Assembly: GCA_946699065.1 (NCBI GenBank)
Contig: CAMPDV010000919.1
Coordinates: forward strand, 101,052 to 165,051
Reading direction: 5' to 3'
DNA: 64,000 nt
Source of the DNA: Loxodes magnus
Taxonomy: Eukaryota; Ciliophora; Karyorelictea; Loxodida; Loxodidae
The notes below the pieces were generated by a model that was not told the DNA's origin, did no database searches, and saw only the letters and a list, made by a program, of their open reading frames with translations. The position numbers were made by a program, and so were the translations under genes. This document shows, piece by piece, positions 50,928 to 52,637 of the stretch (its first letter is position 1; every line of letters begins with the position of its first letter).

Positions 50928-52637
50928 TCAAATCTCATCCTTATGCAATTCTTTAAAATCAAAATAAAACTGAAGCATTTCTTTGTGCTCTTGTAACCAA
51001 ATTTTTGATAAATTTTCCCAAATAAAAGGACTTTTGTAGAAATCATTTTGTTCATATGATAGTATAGGCCCTCCTATTGGAGTATAAATAAGATGATAAT
51101 TACTTGTTCATAAATATTTATTTCTATCTTTATTTATTAGTCATTTATGCCTATAAAAATAAAAACCTTTAATAGTAAAGCATTCAGTTTTTTCATAAGC
51201 TTTACCATCTGTCTTTAAAAACTTTAAAACGTCATTTATTATCTCTAATTATCCGAATTCTTTAAATTTAGGAAATTTTGCGGTTTAATTAGTATAAGAA
51301 TGTCATAATAAATACTATTTTCTAAATTTATTTTTTCCTATTTCCACTTTCTTATCACTTTCAATTGTTACTATTTACTTTTCATAGTATTTAATACTTT
51401 TCTTTATTTCTTTTAACTTTTGCTTAACTTCCTACTTCAACTAAGCATTCTATTTCATTAGATCAAATTTTTCTTTCTCTTTCCTAAATACTTAAAGTCA
51501 TTATGGCACTTCTGACTGATTTTTAAAGTCTTATTTCCAAAAGAACTTAATCTTCATTTCTAGAGATATTGGCCAATCTTATAAAATGAAATTATCGTAT
51601 TTATTTTCTAAGAAAGCAATATTAACTTCACTTTCATTGTGAAGAATTCTGTTTTTTTAGATATGATCTCAGATTTTGAATTCCTGGAACTATTTTCCAT
51701 AATTTCATATAGCTTACATAACTATAAGCAAGAGTAAAACAAACCAAATTATTATCTAGTAAAAACAGAAACTTATAACTGGATCTTATTCTCCTTAACT
51801 GTACCTATTTAAATTTAAGTTATTTTAGATTTATCTGCTTTAATTTTCCTAATTTTGATATTTTGAATTTTTGAATTTTTCTAACTTATTTACAATTTCA
51901 TTTATTGAAGGCCTCGAATCTTAATTTTGTTAAGTACAATTTACTAAGAAGTAATAATCTGGTGGAATATCATTATTTAGAAACATTTTTTAAACTATTC
52001 TTCCAAAGCTATAAATATCATTTTTTTCAGATATTTAAGGAGGATTTAAACTTAATTCAGGAGCTTTGTAGCCGTCAGTTTCAATATTTAAAATGCTTTA
52101 GTCGCCAAATCTTATGCAGAAATCAAAATCGCATATCTTTGCATTATCATTATTATCTAATAAAATATTCTCTGGTTTAAGATCTCTATGAATTATTTCT
52201 TTAGAATGAAGGTATTAAATGCCTTTGGCTATATCAATTATTATATTCAATATTGTTTTTCCTCTTTCTTAATCATCTTCAATTTCATTTATTTAATTAA
52301 TTCTATTTTCTAACATCCCTTAACTTTAGAAAGGAGATACTAAGCATAATTTATTTTCATGAAAACTGAATCCTTTTAAAATTAGAATATTAGAGTGATT
52401 TAAGAGTCCATGATTTCTAATACCTTCTAATGATCTTTAAATTTCTTATAAATTTTCTATAACTTTTATAGCAACTGATTAACCACAAATTTTGCTTTTA
52501 TATACTTTTCCTAAAACTCCTTAACCAATTAGATTTTCTTCATTTATTTATAAATATCCAGAGGGTCACTCTTGAAGAATACCAAGGCTAACTAAACTTC
52601 TTAAGATGGTCATATCAATTTCTGTATTTTGCGTCAT
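50928..52637 (-). CDS. Membrane-anchored protein kinase with conserved C-terminal domain (intact)
   Basis: One unbroken frame of 569 codons runs from ATG 52637 to TGA 50928, with many TAA/TAG as Gln and internal TGA as Trp (LQEWPSG, RHKWLINKD). The kinase domain spans ~30-250: LIGQGVLGKVY (Gly38, Gly40, Gly43), VAIK Lys58, [10 protein letters not shown] (Asp152), CDFDF (Asp170; DFG is DFD), APE 192-194, DIYSFG and Arg242. A hydrophobic membrane segment ([14 protein letters not shown]) lies at ~290-312. A coiled-coil-prone stretch (~385-425) is followed by a C-terminal block ([33 protein letters not shown]) conserved in the paralogues. No signal peptide is seen. The kinase probably faces the cytosol, tethered by the single helix. 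Substrate is unknown. Confidence 0.9.

Follow-up and report, generated by a model that had tools for sequence, protein, structure and literature searches.

Membrane-spanning kinases with the kinase domain at the N-terminus are described in bacteria: according to PMC13147305, PknS has an N-terminal cytoplasmic kinase, a membrane helix and a C-terminal periplasmic region, and PknB has a membrane domain and an extracellular sensor. The EhTMK proteins of Entamoeba form an expanded family of single-pass, tyrosine-kinase-like proteins with a signal peptide, an N-terminal CXXC-rich ectodomain and a C-terminal kinase, and some of their kinase domains are incomplete (PMC2880585).

Here we describe a gene family of the karyorelict ciliate Loxodes magnus whose domain order, seen directly in the sequences, is the same as that of the bacterial Hanks-type kinase PknS. 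The family resembles EhTMK in being an expanded set of single-pass protist kinases, some with incomplete kinase domains, but the order of the domains is reversed. SYMRK and EGFR share with it the kinase homology and the single pass; as type I proteins, they carry ectodomain and kinase in the opposite order. Eukaryotic receptor kinases are, to our knowledge, of type I, with the outside part first and the kinase last, whereas the kinase was N-terminal in all 38 aligned members of the Loxodes family. The family also differs from PknS and PknB: a Pfam search of its member under study, gene C, found no PASTA or TPR domain, the kinase of C is of a eukaryotic, TKL-like kind, and the gene is read in code 27. 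For the C-terminal domain of the Loxodes proteins (the tail), a position outside the cytoplasm is predicted here on the grounds of charge, cysteines and sequons. What appears to be new is the size of the family, its putative ectodomain and, for a eukaryote, the reversed order. Nothing was recognised as this family in the literature searched, which consisted largely of freely readable main texts, and the word kinase does not occur in the main text of either PMC11441545 or PMC6935857.

Gene C and its relatives in the window

The window is the whole stretch of 64,000 nucleotides that was analysed (contig C919, positions 101052-165051), and the assembly searched comprises 705,730,643 bases. UAA and UAG are translated as Gln in Loxodes (PMC6935857). 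Using translation table 27, gene C (50928..52637, minus strand) was read from 52637 to 50928 as a single open frame of 569 residues, followed by a TGA that was taken as the stop. Because code 27 has no dedicated stop and frames hardly ever close, an open frame by itself is no proof of a gene; the reality of gene C rests on the conserved domain order, the alignment with its paralogs and dN/dS values well below 1 in both halves (see below). Near-identical copies of C, with kinase and tail in frame, were found on contigs C1489, C6022, C375 and C2053.

The kinase domain of C occupies residues 33-262 (51852..52541, minus strand), with the Pfam family PF00069 matched at residues 33-226 (E 8.3e-36; 124.2 bits against a cut-off of 31.7). 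The one membrane helix announced in the earlier note was recovered at residues 288-306 (51720..51776, minus strand) as a single segment, with a Kyte-Doolittle maximum of 2.66, while no other segment of C exceeded 1.4. The putative ectodomain, which is conserved across 38 sequences, spans residues 312-569 (50931..51704, minus strand) and contains the expected motifs, as NKDRNK, PIGG and EMLQFYFDF. A Lys/Glu-rich stretch, which had been placed between the helix and the C-terminal block, lies within the C-terminal domain according to the kinase and tail alignments. The protein ends in HKDEI, followed directly by the TGA (window 50928-50945); this end resembles KDEL-type retention signals.

Paralog A (2645..4351, minus strand) and paralog B (about 41149..42830, minus strand; frameshifted as assembled) were located by translated comparison. 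Read on to the first TGA past the last motif, A covers 2603..4351 and has 582 aa. A and C are 43% identical. At the matching place on contig C2862, the relative of B (L072) has the kinase and nearly the whole tail in one frame. A further locus, A' (about 61555..63259, minus strand), lies near the contig end and is likewise frameshifted as assembled. It belongs to a repeat: window positions 1-5092 and 58897-64000, about 58.9 kb apart on C919, are 99.65% identical, and no substitution separates A' from A within the gene, where A' has 7 single-base insertions, likely sequence errors. Given the identity of the repeat, the restriction to insertions and the position at the contig end, A and A' are better regarded as one gene repeated than as independent members: a single duplicate, recent or made by the assembly. 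The earlier note had counted four related loci with a shared order: the order of kinase, helix and tail holds, but with A' a 99.6% duplicate of A the window contains three distinct paralogs.

Copies of the genes in the 1-5092/58897-64000 repeat were also seen on C1489, C375, C2053, C2862 and C6022; the copies on C919 and on the other contigs suggest a tandem array or a redundant assembly. In addition, blocks repeated at 81-91% identity occur at window positions 8525-11471 and 38338-41054, the latter adjoining B, and may belong to a unit that was duplicated earlier.

A family with constant kinase-helix-tail order

The existence of a gene family, proposed from the window, was borne out by a count in the full genome. 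Tail queries returned 138 matches for C, 144 for A and 136 for the distant member L078, all of these counts being lower bounds. Merging all 138 C-tail matches with the 22 A-tail matches judged to be new, and leaving out those of L078, gave 145 tail places on 39 contigs, among them 21 on C146 and 18 on C144; many are near-identical copies, and these numbers too are lower bounds.

Among 70 loci inspected (L009-L078), 59 had the tail in frame with the best kinase match, the kinase being partial in some of them, and 10 had it in a different frame; the remaining one, at a contig end, had the tail only. From the 59, eleven that were partial or lacked a clear start were removed, two window proteins were added to give 50, and a filter at <93% identity left 38 distinct members. 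The tail alignment (A1) has the same membership, except that L063 replaces A of the window. The order kinase, helix, tail was found in all 38. For five loci (L046, L049, L055, L057 and L059), no TGA occurs within about 200 codons past the last motif.

The kinase of C, searched alone, gave 147 matches in the genome, fragments of one gene included. The tail lay just downstream on the same strand in 119 of the 124 matches scoring at least 100 bits, a set that includes fragments and near-identical copies; of the five without a tail, three represent copies of a single rearranged fragment and the other two lie where a contig ends. The 23 weaker matches comprised 4 with the tail and 19 without. In the other direction, the best-scored candidates included no kinase match for 30 of the 145 tail places, several of which are partial or belong to divergent groups. 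Judged from this arrangement and from the shared frames, kinase and tail are one gene and not two, in line with what had been read from the window. A first look at the genome for Pkinase domains turned up 5592 candidate places, 136 of which were scored, hinting at a very large set of kinases.

At least two further predicted proteins, one with a clear kinase, terminate in a related tail. On contig C24 (G000:C24:84700-88600), a locus read separately as L080 and L082 in one frame encodes a kinase larger than that of the family, a MORN match, a hydrophobic stretch and the tail, and so presents a second architecture for the same putative ectodomain. Its kinase, with the motifs HQD and DLD, is above the Pfam cut-off (Pkinase, 1.5e-23); the MORN match is below. 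On contig C5, L081 combines a kinase-like stretch, a long linker, a hydrophobic stretch and the tail. The kinase-like stretch, with HNN, had no kinase match in Pfam but fits the family kinase profile at 4e-13. The tails of the C24 and C5 loci fit the tail profile at 1e-42 and 3.9e-26; all these profile E-values come from a very small sequence set and are only relative. A genome search with the C5 tail gave 28 matches, 16 of them on contigs outside the earlier 39. The last third of the tail only, in one frame, was found in L079 on C45 and at three more places on that contig about 9-10 kb apart; short introns may interrupt these loci, or their architecture may be a different one.

Selection was estimated by the Nei-Gojobori method on the 122 of 703 pairs with dS <0.9 in both halves. 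Pooled dN/dS was 0.37 for the kinase and 0.42 for the tail; the pairs overlap, so that these values describe the set and are no statistical test. On these estimates both halves are under purifying selection. By the same measure the pseudokinases L034 and L039 are constrained too, with a kinase dN/dS of 0.40 for the pair.

Several members are mosaics. L049 and L057 are 98-100% identical in nucleotide windows of the kinase and 69-84% in those of the tail; L064 and L070 show the opposite trend (kinase 76-91%, tail 90-100%), and L040 and L054 have, in part, a nearly identical tail with a different kinase. Comparison of the 500-bp flanks in the 703 pairs gave 34 matches upstream and 16 downstream, mostly between close paralogs. 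Mosaics together with so few flank matches are the pattern expected if copies were duplicated in clusters and underwent gene conversion or unequal exchange, and we infer such exchange between clustered copies. No shared element ends were seen in these flanks, and a mobile element was rejected as an explanation on the basis of this comparison.

Kinase domain, tail and predicted topology

In C the catalytic Lys, the HRD Asp, the Asn and the DFG Asp are all present, and the DFG motif reads DFD. The first-listed PDB matches of the kinase were SYMRK (3.9e-21), EGFR (1.2e-20), CTR1, MAP3K12 and TAK1, with MARK kinases lower among the best 60 of 2555 matches; the kinase of C thus seems TKL-like and ordinary in kind. 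The Gly of DFG is usual in protein kinases, though not strictly needed. Human Mnk1 and Mnk2 also carry DFD, and the Mnks are CaMK-like (PMC3326643). In C, by contrast, TKL and tyrosine kinases stood first among those best 60 of 2555 matches, not a kinase of CaMK type. Asp after DF had been claimed for all members, which proved too broad, and DFD is not universal in the family: the DFG motif reads NFD in A and A', and across the 38 members its third position holds Asp in 29, Gly in one and another residue in 8. All five tail-less kinases sampled from the 19 such matches have Gly there. All four catalytic residues are kept in 23 of the 38 distinct members, and at least one is missing in 15. According to PMC3326643, the DFD of Mnk2 adopts a DFG/D-out conformation that blocks the ATP site, from which, by analogy, the catalytically complete Loxodes members may be tightly gated.

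In the tail alignment of the 38 members, 6 positions are invariant and another 17 nearly so, and the mean column identity is 50%. The tail of C had no useful match in Pfam (best E 0.056) or in PDB (best E 0.16), nor did a profile of the 38 tails in PDB (best E 0.087). Searched singly, the 38 tails gave best E-values of 0.0018 in Pfam, for one member and among the first 25 of 39 families, and of 0.00092 in NCBIfam, also in one member. The strongest of these matches are each to a single member and to different, unrelated families, and were therefore taken as chance. Neither PASTA, TPR nor another known sensor domain appeared among the first 25 of the 39 weakly matching families. No relative of the tail was found in prokaryote contigs with six exact 8-residue patterns from one tail, which reach close relatives only, or in viral contigs with one pattern, which reaches one motif only. 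These searches agree with the original impression that the tail resembles no known domain, and its about 260 aa probably form an unrecognised one. Structure prediction, which had been proposed as a check, gave no usable fold either way: AlphaFold2 returned pLDDT 37.8 for the A tail aligned with those of B and C (3 sequences) and 40.1 for whole C with A (2 sequences), with no usable model in either case.

Sequons (N-x-S/T) are in excess in the tails and not in the kinases. The 38 tails contain 147, against 32 of the reversed pattern, whereas the corresponding numbers are 53 and 60 in the 38 kinases and 897 and 942 in the six frames of the window, used as a null. The mean per tail is 3.87, compared with 1.93 in shuffled sequences, and per kinase 1.39 compared with 1.62. 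Every tail has at least one sequon, and one alignment column has a sequon in 27 members. Cysteines at tail columns 452 and 463 are both present in 24 members and both absent in 14, and neither ever occurs alone; this pattern is explained by 3 changes on the tail tree and thus rests on few independent events. Mean net charge beside the helix is +1.5 on its N side and +0.05 on its C side. Together, sequons, cysteines and charge point to a kinase in the cytosol and a tail that faces a lumen or the cell exterior, a position not remarked on in the earlier note. On these statistics the tail would be N-glycosylated and, in most members, disulfide-bonded. As a rule a member has a single strong hydrophobic segment; a second, weaker one lies within the kinase of L051, L074 and L076.

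Interpretation of the family

In our reading, these genes encode inverted (type II) receptor-like kinases that cross the membrane and form a large family in Loxodes; the kinase would be cytosolic and the tail outside the cell or lumenal. We give this reading a probability of about 0.62. What counts against it are the sequon-poor tail of the C24 locus (one sequon against 4 reversed; the C5 tail has 4 against 2), the weak membrane segments of 2 of the 38 members (Kyte-Doolittle maxima of 1.23 in L031 and 1.20 in L033), the tail places without a kinase and the frameshifted members.

The same sequons and cysteines would suit any lumen of the secretory path, and the tail might lie in the ER or another internal compartment, in which case the protein would be an inverted sensor of stress with a role like that of IRE1 or PERK, and not a surface receptor. 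The end of C, HKDEI, which we take to be KDEL-like, would fit; among the 38 members, however, it was found in C and L015 only, the other ends being different, and large, clustered, mosaic families seem more typical of surface recognition, which makes an internal sensor unlikely. That both halves are cytosolic, the hydrophobic segment merely anchoring the protein and the tail being a scaffold or regulatory domain, is harder still to accept: the Lys/Glu-rich stretch in the tail, the C24 tail and the weak segments of L031 and L033 would agree with it, but the sequon excess is confined to the tail, the cysteines are paired and the charge is asymmetric. As for a functionless, decaying family of repeats or mobile-element genes, the many clustered copies and the 10 of 70 loci with kinase and tail in different frames are what such decay might leave behind; the pooled dN/dS of both halves and flanks that match in few pairs, mostly of close paralogs and with no shared element ends seen, make it very improbable.

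If the type II reading is right, the N-terminal TKL-like kinase or pseudokinase would lie in the cytosol and a single helix would span the membrane, while the C-terminal ectodomain, outside the cell or in a lumen, would bind a ligand or partner. Binding might lead to dimerisation of the receptor and to altered activity of the kinase end, and members lacking catalytic residues might function as partners or as allosteric switches. The receptor set would be diversified by its clustered copies and by the exchange of sequence between kinase and tail. This proposal on sensing, dimerisation and signalling is by analogy only: with eukaryotic receptor kinases at large and with the bacterial N-kinase receptors described in PMC13147305.

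A wider and more doubtful proposal, which we put forward tentatively, is that Loxodes has a back-to-front receptor repertoire, built on an ectodomain superfamily unknown elsewhere, joined to more than one cytosolic part, diversified by recombination and assisted by pseudokinase partners, which would serve this single-celled predator as a recognition system for prey, symbiont, mate or self.

Members that lack at least one catalytic residue, 15 of the 38, would be a natural set of receptor pseudokinases. A reverse-order family in a karyorelict ciliate would, if true, be a second eukaryotic solution, convergent with bacterial receptors of the PknS/PknB type, and would enlarge the protein catalogue by an ectodomain superfamily. 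By analogy, the inverted receptors may sense something that the cell meets, and the family would then offer a molecular entry to environmental sensing by a large single cell.
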